A DNA stretch of 64,000 nucleotides from Stenomitos rutilans HA7619-LM2 (GTDB lineage: Bacteria > Cyanobacteriota > Cyanobacteriia > Leptolyngbyales > Leptolyngbyaceae). Under the pieces are notes generated by a model, which did no database searches, was not told the DNA's origin, and saw only the letters and a list, made by a program, of their open reading frames with translations. The position numbers were made by a program, and so were the translations under genes. The DNA is taken from the NCBI GenBank assembly GCA_019358945.1, contig JAHHIE010000005.1:124001-188000 (forward strand), read 5' to 3'. The stretch's first letter is position 1. Every line of letters starts with the position of its first letter. Of the stretch, positions 4,402-34,562 are shown one piece after another.

Positions 4402-4699
4402 TAGGACTACGCAAATTCTCGCAAAACTGGCCCCCAACCCCAAATTGGCAGGGCGGTTTCATGTATCAGAAGAAAAAAGGTTTGCAACGGCTTTTGGAGC
4501 GGCTGATACCGATTTAAAGAATGACGGCTACAGATCAATCGGTGGGTAGGGGCAAGGCAATGCCTTGCCCCTACAGGATGTGTCGCATTTTCAATTCAAA
4601 TTGGTATGAAACCACCGTGCCAGCCTCCAAATTTGGGGGAGAGGGCAACATCAAAGTCTCCCAGAATTGGGGGGGGTAGGGGGCGACTACGTAAGTCCT
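4402..4699. repeat. Interrupted MITE-like element with TAGGACTTACGCA-type ends
   Basis: The left end reads TAGGACTACGCA (4402-4413) and the right end TACGTAAGTCCT (4688-4699), close to the terminal repeats of the intact element at 36141-36252. Inner C-rich and G-rich tracts (near 4430 and 4665) are also roughly complementary. The middle is occupied by a different 102-bp palindromic element (4506-4607). The arrangement suggests one small element inserted into another. Confidence 0.5.
4506..4607. mobile_element. 102-bp MITE-like palindromic element, copy 1
   Basis: The element begins ATACCGATTTAAA and ends TTCAAATTGGTAT, giving imperfect terminal inverted repeats. The core is a palindrome around GGGGCAAGGCATTGCCTTGC-type sequence flanked by GTAGG and CCTAC. 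A second copy in the opposite orientation, the same length with only about three differences, lies at 32212-32313. TA lies at each tip, which would fit a TA target duplication as in IS630/Tc1 elements. It has no coding capacity. Confidence 0.75.
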
Positions 4700-4793
4700 G
4701 TTAGCTTTAAAGCTAAAGAATTAGACCTCGCATGCGCAAGGCCATAATCACTGGCGCGTGAAAGAGCGTTATACAGATTACTGAACTTGCCAA

Positions 4794-4809
4794 TGTGATT
4801 AAGATCACC
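4794..4809 (+). promoter_or_regulatory. CRP-type operator upstream of small RNA unit 1
   Basis: TGTGA-TTAAGA-TCACC matches the TGTGA-N6-TCACA half-site arrangement of CRP/SyCRP1 at nine of ten positions. It starts 59 bp before the CATACT -10-like hexamer of unit 1, the same distance as in unit 2. Its centre is about 62 bp upstream of the predicted transcript start, a classical class I activator position. No good -35 box is visible, as expected for an activator-dependent promoter. Confidence 0.65.
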
Positions 4810-4861
4810 AGCAAGGATGATCTTGATCGCATGTGAACAAGAGCGCTAACGACATACTTTA

Positions 4862-4941
4862 GAAGACTCAACTTTAGCCGAGTCATCAACAGGGAACACA
4901 CGACTGACCGACAGGTTTCTTTCGAGGACTGTCGGTTTTTT
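4862..4941 (+). ncRNA. Predicted small RNA, tandem unit 1
   Basis: The predicted 80-nt transcript has a 5' hairpin (GACTC 4865-4869 with GAGTC 4880-4884), a single-stranded stretch containing CAACAGGGAACACACGAC, and a terminator (ACCGACAG 4907-4914 with CTGTCGGT 4929-4936 followed by T). CATACT at 4853-4858 can serve as a -10 box. A nearly identical unit follows 165 bp downstream. The layout of hairpin, conserved open segment and terminator resembles cyanobacterial Yfr-type RNAs, and the open segment is loosely like the Yfr2 AGGAAACA motif, but I cannot assign it to a family. Confidence 0.65.
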
Positions 4942-4958
4942 ATTTGGCGCAATCACGA

Positions 4959-4974
4959 TGTGACGAAGATCACA
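4959..4974 (+). promoter_or_regulatory. Consensus CRP-type operator upstream of small RNA unit 2
   Basis: TGTGA-CGAAGA-TCACA is an exact match to the CRP consensus half-sites with the correct six-base spacer. It lies 59 bp before the CATACT hexamer (5018-5023), exactly as in unit 1. The spacer region is less conserved between the two units than the operator, which argues for selection on the site. Confidence 0.72.
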
Positions 4975-5026
4975 CCAAGGGCTGATCTAGATCGCATCGG
5001 TCATGATGCTGAAGCAACATACTTAA

Positions 5027-5106
5027 AAAGACTCAACTTTAGCCGAGTCATCAACAGGGAACACACGACTGACCGACAGATTTCTTGCGAAGACTGTCGG
5101 TTTTTT
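5027..5106 (+). ncRNA. Predicted small RNA, tandem unit 2
   Basis: This is the second copy of the unit at 4862-4941. GACTC begins at 5030, the open CAACAGGGAACACACGAC stretch is unchanged, and the terminator pairs CCGACAG (5073-5079) with CTGTCGG (5094-5100), followed by six T. Differences from unit 1 fall mainly in the terminator loop. The repeat period of 165 bp includes operator, promoter and terminator, so each copy looks like an independent gene. Confidence 0.68.
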
Positions 5107-5286
5107 ATTACTAAACTCCCTAGCAGTAAGTGACTACTACTTCCCGTAGCAGTAGTGTACAGGCTATGAGAAACGAGACAAGAGGTGCGTGACCCCCGAT
5201 CACAAGGCTACTTGCTGTAAAGAGGCTCAGCAGGCAGCATAAACTGAGCTAACGTTCCAGAATGTATTGCCGTTTGACCATGCCCA

Positions 5287-5889
5287 CTAGCTCATGGCAC
5301 CCATTGTGTCTTTCCATGATAACTCTTTGCAGAGAATATTCAAAGCACGTTGCTCATCGCCATCAAACAGTTGGCTATCAATCAATTCAGTTAACACTTG
5401 CTGGGTTAACTGAGTCGCAAACGTCCCGCCGCAGCGCAACAAATGGCTGTAATAGCAAAACTGCGGCTGCCCCTGACGGTTTCGGTGAAAGCGATGAATT
5501 TCAGCCTGTGTCATGGTTTCAACGGGTGTGTTAATTGGTACGACAACTTTAGGAATGCCGTGAATACCGTAGGATGAACCATTGTCTGCTTCGAGAGTGC
5601 CAATGAGTACCGTCCAGAGTAACGTTCGGGTCTCGCTAATCAAATCAGGTGCAAAGACGGGATCAGGTTCACTCGACAAACGGGGTCCCATATTCAAAAA
5701 CATAGGGTTAAAAAGCTGGGTATTGTAGACAAGTCCTACAGCCCAATGACGATCGCCACTGTCTAGCCGCACAAAACAGCCAAACCCGTAATCATCCGGT
5801 TTAGGAGGATCTGCTCGACTGCGTTCATCATGCAGTTCCACGACGTAGTCACAGTGCGAGTTGGATTTAACAACTTTGCCCAAACGCAT
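5287..5889 (-). CDS. Conserved protein with HAS-barrel-like N-terminus
   Basis: The 200-residue protein begins MRLGKVVKSNSHCDYVVEL and continues with a beta-rich segment (FGCFVRLDSGDRHWAVGLVYN, residues about 42-62 as landmark), which resembles the HAS-barrel seen at the N-terminus of HerA-type ATPases and ATP-synthase subunits. No ATPase domain follows; the C-terminal half is helical and unrecognised. The ATG at 5887-5889 is chosen over an upstream start because it gives the barrel-like N-terminus and has AGAGGA about ten bases upstream. Similar stand-alone proteins are, to my knowledge, common in cyanobacteria, but no function is assigned. Confidence 0.65.
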   Translation of the reverse strand: MRLGKVVKSNSHCDYVVELHDERSRADPPKPDDYGFGCFVRLDSGDRHWAVGLVYNTQLFNPMFLNMGPRLSSEPDPVFAPDLISETRTLLWTVLIGTLEADNGSSYGIHGIPKVVVPINTPVETMTQAEIHRFHRNRQGQPQFCYYSHLLRCGGTFATQLTQQVLTELIDSQLFDGDEQRALNILCKELSWKDTMGAMS

Positions 5890-6127
5890 AGCGAACCATC
5901 CTCTTGCCAACACCAATACAATGCTTCCAGCATACGCAGGAATGCCCAAAAGGGAACATTTGTACCGAATGTTTAGCGATTCGCTTTGACAGAAGGTTGT
6001 GAAAGGAGAAACTGCTGTCTATACAAACGATCTGCCTAGCAGCGTTAAGCAGGTCTAGATAAGGAGGTAATGGCAAAAGAGCAGTGTCCCGATGGAAGTG
6101 CCTATCCTTTAGTCGTTGGGCAGCGCT

Positions 6128-6848: not shown

Positions 6849-7217
6849 TTAGGCAGATTTAACGTTCTCGATCGCCACGTCAACTGATGTTTGCAGCGCG
6901 AGAAATTGCTCTAAACGAACCAGTTTGACTGTCTGGGTGACACGAGGATTCGTCACAATTTGCAAAGTGCCCTCAGCAGTCTGGGCTTTCTTCGCAAGCT
7001 GCACTAGCGCACCCAAACCAGAACTATCCACAAAATCAATTTTGGATAGATCTAGAATGACGTGCTTGGGTCCCTCCTCTATACATTTAGTAAGCACCTT
7101 ACGAAACGTAGGTTCTGAGAAAGCATCCAAGAGACCTGTGAGGCGAAATAACTGGTAATTGTCCCTAACTTCGCGCGTGCCTCTTAAGCTGACTGTCAGG
7201 GTTAGTTGTTCAGGAAT
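6849..7217 (-). CDS. STAS-domain anti-sigma factor antagonist with apparent ATT start
   Basis: This is a STAS-domain protein of the SpoIIAA type, which binds a partner-switching kinase. The phosphorylation-site motif is clear in DFVDSSGLGALVQL (the DSSG serines). Standard start codons give at most 93 residues from a TTG (7130), which removes the first beta strands. Reading upstream in frame gives 29 more family-like residues (LTLTVSLRGTREVRDNYQLF as landmark) up to ATT at 7215-7217. That ATT is preceded by AGGAGG with a five-base spacer, and an in-frame stop lies just beyond. ATT is therefore the most likely start, giving 122 residues. An unusual start or a sequencing error in an ATG are the alternatives. 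Confidence 0.82.
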   Translation of the reverse strand: MPEQLTLTVSLRGTREVRDNYQLFRLTGLLDAFSEPTFRKVLTKCIEEGPKHVILDLSKIDFVDSSGLGALVQLAKKAQTAEGTLQIVTNPRVTQTVKLVRLEQFLALQTSVDVAIENVKSA

Positions 7218-33869: not shown

Positions 33870-34562
33870 TCAGGTACGAGTCAGCGTTGAGTCTGTTGGA
33901 ATACAAAGCAAGTTGTCTCCCTGGGTACGAATCATGCCACGCTGGCGAAGTTTACCCATGAGACGAGTCACGGTGACACGGGTAGAGCCGATCGCGCTAC
34001 CAATCTGAGCGTGGGTGAGTGGAAATGGCAAGCAATAGCCTTGCTCCGTTGGTTCGCCATACTCTTCGATGAGCAGCGTCAGAAAACCAAGTAAGCGATC
34101 GATCGTTCGCCGCTGCCCTAGTGTGCTGAGCCAGAGAAGCTTACGCTGATGCTGGTAGCGAAACGCATCCAAAACCTCTCGACGAAAATGGGGCCAGTTA
34201 TCCAAATCATGCCAGTACATCCAAAGCACAGAGGTCTGATCGACGTGGGCATAACTTTGCAGGGTAAAGGGCGACTGAGCCACAATTTCAAAGGGTTGCC
34301 CTGCGCCAACAAATCCTAAGAAAGCTTCTTCGGGGCTAATGCGTGGCAAACGCGATGAACTGCTGCCAGTAGCATTCACCTGTGCGCTACCGACTAAGCG
34401 AACAGCACCACGTTGAACCAAATAGACAAGCCCAGGTCTAGTGGGCAGCTTTTCGTCTTTAGCAAACGTGCGAACACGGTAATGCTCCTGAGACCAATCA
34501 ATAATTCGTTGCCAGGTTAGGAAAGGACGAGATGCCTCTGAATTAGATGTTACTGAGTACAT
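33870..34562 (-). CDS. Crp/Fnr-family regulator, NtcA/SyCRP2-like
   Basis: The protein of 230 residues has a cyclic-nucleotide-binding-fold domain (about 20-120), a long dimer helix and a winged helix whose recognition segment IGSTRVTVTRLMG is nearly that of NtcA and SyCRP1/2. The ATG at 34560-34562 gives the MYSVTSNSEASRPFLTW N-terminus I associate with cyanobacterial SyCRP2-like proteins; an upstream GTG would add 19 residues. The cyclic-nucleotide pocket lacks a clear arginine-containing PBC motif, so cAMP binding is doubtful. It is encoded 29 kb from the CRP-type operators of the small RNA units. Confidence 0.85.
   Translation of the reverse strand: MYSVTSNSEASRPFLTWQRIIDWSQEHYRVRTFAKDEKLPTRPGLVYLVQRGAVRLVGSAQVNATGSSSSRLPRISPEEAFLGFVGAGQPFEIVAQSPFTLQSYAHVDQTSVLWMYWHDLDNWPHFRREVLDAFRYQHQRKLLWLSTLGQRRTIDRLLGFLTLLIEEYGEPTEQGYCLPFPLTHAQIGSAIGSTRVTVTRLMGKLRQRGMIRTQGDNLLCIPTDSTLTRT

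Follow-up and report, generated by a model that had tools for sequence, protein, structure and literature searches.

Tandem small RNA genes with phased CRP-type operators suggest a common output of cyclic-AMP signalling in cyanobacteria

INTRODUCTION

Several described small RNAs (sRNAs) share one or another feature with the genes analysed here. In Nostoc, NsiR1 is an RNA of about 60 nt encoded in a tandem array in which each copy has its own promoter and the copies are partly identical; the array is described as lying upstream of hetF, depending on HetR and being read from DIF1 promoters (PMC9045159). Yfr1 and Yfr2 are cyanobacterial sRNAs that are conserved widely and contain a conserved motif (PMC6778093), the open motif of Yfr1 being CACUCCUCACACC (PMC4734099). 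Control by Crp/Fnr-family proteins is represented by CyaR and other CRP-controlled sRNAs of enterobacteria, and by the NtcA-regulated NsrR1 and NsiR4, of which NsrR1 is described as having homologues in heterocystous genomes only (PMC6166021). The cyanobacterial CRP regulon, with its operator TGTGAN6TCACA, was surveyed in 12 genomes by Xu and Su in 2009; as described, that survey addressed transcription units of annotated genes and could not clearly make out any set of genes shared by most of the genomes, and the terms "small RNA" and "non-coding" are absent from its main text (PMC2633013).

The sRNA genes described here share the operator and the regulator type of that regulon. They resemble NsiR1 in being cyanobacterial, tandemly copied and equipped with a promoter each, and appear to be set apart from NsiR1, as the latter has been described, by adjoining purL-type or apcF-like genes in many Nostocaceae-type loci, by their CRP-type operators and by their occurrence also in Leptolyngbya and Thermosynechococcus. 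With CyaR and the related enterobacterial sRNAs, as these are described, they have the proposed cAMP-CRP control of the promoter in common; unlike in those sRNAs, the operators form a 22-bp phased array and the genes are often tandem, and no homology is claimed. Crp/Fnr-type control is likewise proposed here as for NsrR1 and NsiR4, but only two of 197 upstream regions contain an NtcA motif, and, unlike in Yfr1, the motif core CTCCTCACAC is found in none of the 197 RNAs. We propose that each unit is probably an independent gene for a cAMP-CRP-activated, trans-acting sRNA, amplified in tandem for dosage.

RESULTS

Tandem sRNA genes in the window

The window is the whole stretch of DNA that was analysed, 64,000 nucleotides in length (G000:C105:124001-188000), from a genome of 7.28 Mb in 119 contigs. 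The initial annotation had recognized tandem small RNA genes in it from the letters alone, and this observation is confirmed: a direct repeat of 93 nt (4852-4944 and 5017-5109) is 95% identical at a spacing of 165 bp, and in both copies, A and B, TGTGA-N6-TCAC stands 59 bp (start to start) ahead of CATACT. The locus extends beyond that description, which does not mention that each copy has a further CRP-like site, its position 22 bp downstream of site 1. The RNA, predicted to be about 77 nt long from a start site placed by the -10 element, comprises a 5′ hairpin, a near-invariant open segment AUCAACAGGGAACACACGAC and a terminator. The features are as follows.

4794..4809, + strand: site 1 of copy A, a CRP-type operator (TGTGATTAAGATCACC) centred on 4801.5, about -63.5 relative to the predicted transcription start site (TSS)
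4816..4831, + strand: site 2 of copy A, a CRP-like operator (GATGATCTTGATCGCA, 7/10) centred on 4823.5, -41.5 relative to the predicted TSS
4853..4858, + strand: -10 element CATACT of copy A
4865..4941, + strand: predicted sRNA of copy A, about 77 nt; TSS placed from the -10
4865..4884, + strand: 5′ hairpin GACUC...GAGUC of copy A (fold, alignment)
4885..4906, + strand: open near-invariant segment AUCAACAGGGAACACACGACUG of copy A; proposed target-pairing region
4907..4941, + strand: intrinsic terminator of copy A (fold, alignment)
4959..4974, + strand: CRP-type operator, site 1 of copy B, TGTGACGAAGATCACA
4981..4996, + strand: site 2 of copy B, a CRP-like operator (GCTGATCTAGATCGCA) at -41.5 relative to the predicted TSS
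5018..5023, + strand: -10 element CATACT of copy B
5030..5106, + strand: predicted sRNA of copy B; predicted TSS
5030..5049, + strand: 5′ hairpin of copy B (fold, alignment)
5050..5071, + strand: open segment of copy B, 22/22 identical to copy A
5072..5106, + strand: intrinsic terminator of copy B (fold, alignment)

When copies A and B were compared at the fixed 165-bp offset, the operator and the RNA proved better conserved than the spacer, as had been claimed. Site 1 was identical at 13/16 positions and the RNA at 74/77, against 7/21 for the spacer before the -10. Identity was 4/15 upstream of site 1, 2/6 in the gap between the sites, 14/16 in the second site, 6/6 in the -10 and 4/6 from the -10 to the TSS, and within the RNA the hairpin (20/20) and the open segment (22/22) were identical throughout and the terminator at 32/35 positions. 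The minimum free energies of the two RNA copies gave z values of -2.4 and -2.9 under shuffling. Each unit reads as a compact putative gene of promoter, structured RNA and terminator that is conserved across species.

A simple consensus scan of 4700-5200 listed no two-hexamer sigma-70 promoter, nor did it list the two plus-strand sRNA terminators, because their loops exceed the 3-8 nt limit of the scan; the terminators of copies A and B were assigned from the RNA folds and the alignment. On the minus strand the same scan scored 5049-5030, the reverse reading of the 5′ hairpin followed by a T run, as terminator-like. Upstream of the sRNA genes, the intergenic DNA at 4546-4574 contains a perfect 14-bp inverted repeat, GTAGGGGCAAGGCA/TGCCTTGCCCCTAC, which is possibly REP-like.

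Phased CRP-type operators in the promoter

The exact motif TGTGAN6TCAC occurs 50 times in the 7.28-Mb genome (both strands) against 39 times for the reversed control, and the motif alone therefore proves little; the window's two copies, moreover, are related by descent. The operator is more than chance because its position is fixed across 197 distinct copies, for each of which the 140 bases upstream of the core were scored against TGTGAN6TCACA at 10 positions. The sample retains L115, a record labelled Acidimicrobiaceae that has no operators and was treated as a chance match or contaminant, and excludes L071 (f26) and L223 (G339, f35), in which the core pattern was unmatched. In the rows for L011 and L065 the -10 was misplaced during site scoring, and the position profile used a narrower -10 search. 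The L115 match itself, at 7155-7176 on the minus strand of a metagenome-assembled genome record, may reflect chance or a mis-binned contig.

Counted from the first base of the -10, the best CRP match lay at -51.5/-52.5 in 174 of the 197 copies and at -29.5/-30.5 in 14. Site 1 scored at least 7/10 in 182/197 copies compared with 0.8% of background positions, and the downstream site 2 scored at least 6 in 129/197 compared with 4.5%. The position profile peaked at -51.5 (mean 7.39, part of the copies having the site at -52.5), at -29.5 (mean 5.66/10) and weakly at -73.5 (mean 3.17, against an overall mean of 2.61), so that the peaks are 22 bp apart; a shoulder at -49.5 (mean 4.02) lies two bases off the main peak. 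With the -10 set to -12 to -7, the operator centres fall at about -41.5, -63.5 and -85.5 from the predicted TSS. A third operator, at about -85.5, was found in 13 copies, of which 11 are convincing, L016 and L132 looking like noise. The mean majority-base frequency, which ignores the relatedness of the copies, was 0.74 in the half-sites of site 1 and 0.70 in those of site 2, against 0.43 in the spacer and 0.41 upstream.

When one copy per family was taken, the upstream site scored at least 7/10 in 15 of 16 families (among them f15, with a best match of 9/10 elsewhere, at -76.5), f35 having a 10/10 downstream site instead, and the downstream site reached at least 6 in 11/16. A 17th family, f26, was dropped from this sample because its core did not match the pattern; the sites of its locus L071 are readable separately. 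The two sites vary in relative strength. Some Leptolyngbyaceae have a downstream site that is nearly a full operator (L014 by eye; L020 and L023 at 9/10), and L019 and L024 combine a weakened upstream site (6/10) with a downstream site of 9/10. In L068-L070 and the named Thermosynechococcus L192 the downstream site stands alone, at 10/10 and -30.5 (about -42.5 from the TSS). Inspection by eye shows both positions occupied in the two divergent copies of G339 (f35), and family f35 therefore does not follow a single-site rule.

These positions modify the initial assignment of class I geometry. The CRP-type operator is present as described, and its centre, put at about -62 in that assignment, lies at about -63.5, not -61.5, when the hairpin's first G is counted as +1, which puts it 2 bp off the classical class I optimum; the second operator, at -41.5, occupies the class II position. 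A -35 box was not enriched, as TTGACA was matched at 4/6 or better in 22/197 copies at the -35 position and in 36/197 at control positions. A CRP-activated promoter would be expected to have, as here, an operator of the TGTGAN6TCACA type whose position ahead of the -10 is conserved, and cyanobacterial CRP-activated promoters are described with a -10 box about 22 bp after the CRP site (PMC2633013), with which the 21-bp gap between site 2 and the -10 fits.

Since site 2 covers the -35 region, bound CRP could also block the polymerase there and repress or merely modulate transcription; sRNAs repressed by CRP are described in E. coli, Spot 42 being one (PMC6166021). We consider this very unlikely. 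Most promoters activated by NtcA are described as having their site at -41.5, in the manner of class II activation by CRP (PMC6166021), a missing -35 box is expected of activator-dependent promoters, and the Thermosynechococcus-type promoters (L068-L070, L192) retain the downstream site only. Activation by cAMP-CRP remains the preferred reading of the array.

The CRP orthologue and its co-occurrence with the sRNA

A cAMP-receptor-type CRP is encoded in the genome that carries the sRNA genes. This orthologue (G000:C70:319214-319912, 233 aa) has cNMP-binding and HTH_Crp_2 domains and is similar to solved CRPs. Its recognition helix contains RETVTR and its cyclic-nucleotide domain a PRST segment, both of which we take to be counterparts of the E. 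coli contacts. Given this full orthologue, whose recognition helix is CRP-like, the sRNA may, as initially suggested, be cAMP-responsive.

Orthologues were defined in 386 genomes by a cut-off of at least 56% identity (E<1e-74). CRP and the RNA occurred together in 47 genomes, the RNA only in 2, CRP only in 62 and neither in 275, an association (Fisher p 2e-27) whose statistic ignores kinship and is confounded by phylogeny. Among the 62 CRP-bearing genomes (of 109) that lacked the RNA, all of which were searched with a second model, no match fell under E 0.05, and five weak matches had E values of 0.06-0.42; CRP therefore does not require the RNA, which is lineage-dependent. The two genomes with the RNA only are G338, with a weak, doubtful RNA match and no CRP hit, and G153, in which a CRP remnant (G153:C1:2550407-2550694, L399) keeps 76% identity over the C-terminal 96 residues and has two TAA codons inside. 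This loss is apparently recent.

The sRNA genes might instead be driven by another Crp/Fnr-family protein, either NtcA or a CRP-like paralogue of about 40% identity. Thirteen HTH_Crp_2 matches were found in G000, including L205, presumably NtcA-like, and the paralogue L215, and in G153 both operators look intact despite the broken CRP. Site 2 also deviates from the CRP consensus: it is degenerate in most copies (consensus TGATYNNGATCGY) and its right half favours TCG over TCA, so it could be read by another protein. Against this, a full CRP orthologue is present in 47/49 RNA-bearing genomes, the RETVTR helix is found in the CRP orthologue and not in L215, and NtcA was rejected as the regulator because GTAN8TAC was found in only 2/197 upstream regions, the sites fitting TGTGAN6TCACA. 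Control by another regulator is accordingly unlikely, and cAMP-bound CRP is the favoured candidate. The window itself also encodes, at 33900-34097 on the minus strand, a Crp/Fnr-type HTH protein (L209) in a 258-aa open frame.

Spread, conservation and novelty of the RNA family

Strong RNA matches (E<1e-9) were obtained by DNA search in 44 of 58 relatives; at E<=1 the number was 50, with short chance-level hits only in six. The genus g15 (G020, G029), of the same family as the window genome, gave no RNA match in the DNA search. A covariance model was then built from 44 sequences, and with stricter filters in the phylum search it placed the sRNA in 49 of 386 genomes of the cyanobacterial phylum (E<=0.01), which is probably a lower bound; the match in G338, one of these carriers, reached 33.6 bits and is doubtful. 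Named carriers among the matches listed are Leptolyngbya, Myxacorys, Nodosilinea, Nostoc, Anabaena, Calothrix, Fischerella and Thermosynechococcus.

No part of the RNA is more constant than the open segment, most of which is invariant across the 44 aligned sequences. In most of the f28 copies inspected it takes the form AUUAAUAGGGAACACAC, and f28 is called Nostocaceae-type because this form matches named Nostoc records. The f28 form usually retains the hairpin 3′ arm GAGUC with an altered 5′ arm, and in L072, the single such sequence that was folded, a weak hairpin was still formed. Both sides had changed in at least one aligned sequence for 5 of the 15 predicted pairs, all within the terminator, so that covariation bears on the terminator and not on the 5′ hairpin.

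No known family was matched: at the gathering score, none of the 4227 families of Rfam 15 matched the window or 8 other loci, and the best sub-threshold match over the RNA was Hrs13, at 12.8 bits of the 52 required. As to the suggested comparison with Yfr families, the Rfam matches to 4700-5200 at E<=5 included none of Yfr type; Yfr2 stands in Rfam as Cyano-1. Identity with a known family was rejected on the absence of anything relevant in both the gathering-score and E-value modes. As to phage origin, the exact 36-mer was found in 0 viral contigs, a result with little bearing on variants.

In the literature searched, with supplementary tables outside its scope, no published description of this RNA was found, and its exact core strings were absent from the texts searched. 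A set of 151 predicted Nostoc sRNAs has been mapped, with homologues given in a figure and supplement (PMC4734099), and it is quite possible that the RNA stands in Table S3 of that paper as an unnamed entry or start site. The CRP array, the breadth of lineages, the homogenized tandem copies and the connection with the common CRP target that earlier work had missed (PMC2633013) appear to be new.

Copy number and apparent homogenization of the RNA bodies

The sRNA is present in one to five copies per genome, with five in G016 and four in tandem in G022. Within the window genus, the promoter of the first copy in G000 differed from that of G001, G002 and G006 at 9-10 of 60 positions, from that of G004 at 16/60 and from that of G003 at 21/60, and the promoters of the first and second copies within one genome differed at 20-29/60. 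In this comparison the second and third copies of G001 are identical. The two RNA copies of G002 are identical to each other, although 4-12 of about 83 positions, gaps counted, separate them from copies elsewhere in the genus. The two RNA copies of G004 are likewise identical, and the copies within G000, G001 and G006 differ by 4-5, G003 being the exception with 8.

This is the pattern to be expected if gene conversion acted on the RNA bodies and the promoters evolved separately; strong constraint on the RNA accounts for part of the likeness of the copies. Duplication had been proposed either to raise dosage or to let the copies diverge. As the RNA bodies look homogenized in several relatives while the promoters keep their own ancestry, dosage is favoured; functional divergence is not supported, the open segments being identical.

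Some copies are atypical. In L010 (G004:C291, about 1619-1708) the middle tandem copy seems to have no -10; its CRP site almost abuts a different hairpin (GCCGG...GCCGGC), which is followed by the conserved open segment, and it looks like a deletion derivative. The second copy of G040 (L039, G040:C11, about 489-579) has an intact RNA body but neither a CRP site (3/10) nor a clear -10 ahead of it, and is possibly an orphan. In L052 (G048:C1, 496-586) the open segment and terminator are conserved, the 5′ end is different and a weak operator stands at the usual place.

Genomic neighbours

Among 171 locus entries, in which some genomes occur twice, an apcF-like phycobilisome gene lay convergently downstream in 67 and a purL-type gene upstream in 30, these being Nostocaceae-type; the names apcF and purL are our presumptive assignments. 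In 27 Leptolyngbyaceae-type entries the neighbours were relatives of the uncharacterized protein at 5287-5949 of the window. The apcF-like neighbour matched the Pfam Phycobilisome family, and the 5287-5949 protein gave no Pfam match. Since there is no universal neighbour, the sRNA is a free-standing gene.

Target searches

The 13-nt complement TGTGTTCCCTRTT was searched in 70 genomes. Many hits were the antisense strand of the sRNA itself; outside sRNA genes there were 36, by hand count from coordinates, against 24 for the reversed control, which is little excess. Three of the twelve complement loci inspected (L244, L263 and L270) belong to a single homologous region, which is the leader of a gene that we take to be HetP-like. 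Such leaders were found in six genomes (38 searched); L400, L409, L410, L411 and L414 carry the complement or a G-U-compatible variant, and in the sixth, L412, it is absent. In these five Nostocaceae-type genomes the sequence TGTGTTYCCTATT, complementary to the sRNA core, is part of a conserved block that precedes the HetP-like protein by several hundred bases. The five leaders are one shared block and not independent events, and thus provide a weak lead only. In the small genome G226, duplex energies of the open segment with 2586 predicted gene starts showed no excess over shuffles: the best was -23.1, and the best values of three shuffled controls (-23.8, -26.1 and -26.7) were all stronger. 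This screen had no accessibility term, and its start sites were mechanical. With no clear signal in either the complement or the energy screen, base-pairing has no support of its own.

Rather than being a trans-acting sRNA gene, the repeat might encode a peptide, act as a structured DNA element or yield a decoy RNA that binds a protein; the open segment is uniform enough for protein binding to be possible, and the lack of a target signal agrees with such readings. A peptide gene was rejected, since an internal ORF of at least 10 codons was present in 7/197 RNAs and none was conserved. The hairpin and terminator, moreover, are kept across families though the 5′ arm changes in the Nostoc form, and the C to T changes that separate the Leptolyngbya form from the Nostoc form would still pair with G. 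We regard these alternatives together as improbable, and a trans-acting sRNA remains the better account.

DISCUSSION

The anatomy and conservation of the units, their fixed operator positions, their co-occurrence with CRP and a pattern of homogenization among their copies, all read from genome sequences, point to the following mechanism. The promoter consists of a -10 element and, with no -35 box, a phased array of CRP-family operators. One site, at about -41.5, overlaps the -35 region in class II geometry, a usually stronger site lies 22 bp upstream at about -63.5, and some copies have a third at about -85.5. Cyclic-AMP-bound CRP of the SyCRP1/AnCrpA type would sit side by side on these operators and recruit RNA polymerase, so that the RNA would be transcribed from the predicted start when cAMP is high. 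The unpaired, near-invariant segment between the two hairpins would then most likely pair with mRNAs. Tandem copies with their own operators would raise dosage, and gene conversion would keep the RNA bodies alike as the promoters evolve separately.

More tentatively, and with somewhat less than even confidence, the sRNA could be an ancient core output of cAMP-CRP that was hidden from regulon surveys because it is non-coding. The two to three CRP dimers on a 22-bp array might then act as a cooperative switch, and the copy number of the whole promoter-RNA unit, the copies being held alike by gene conversion, might set the gain of the cAMP response in each lineage.

An sRNA with a CRP-type operator, whose position is fixed in 15 of 16 sampled families with the neighbouring site kept in the 16th, would be a common target and would give a handle on cAMP signalling in photosynthetic bacteria. 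With one, two or three phased operators and one to five copies, these genes also offer a natural series for the study of promoter logic and sRNA dosage. The findings thus suggest a long-missed common output of cyclic-AMP signalling in cyanobacteria.
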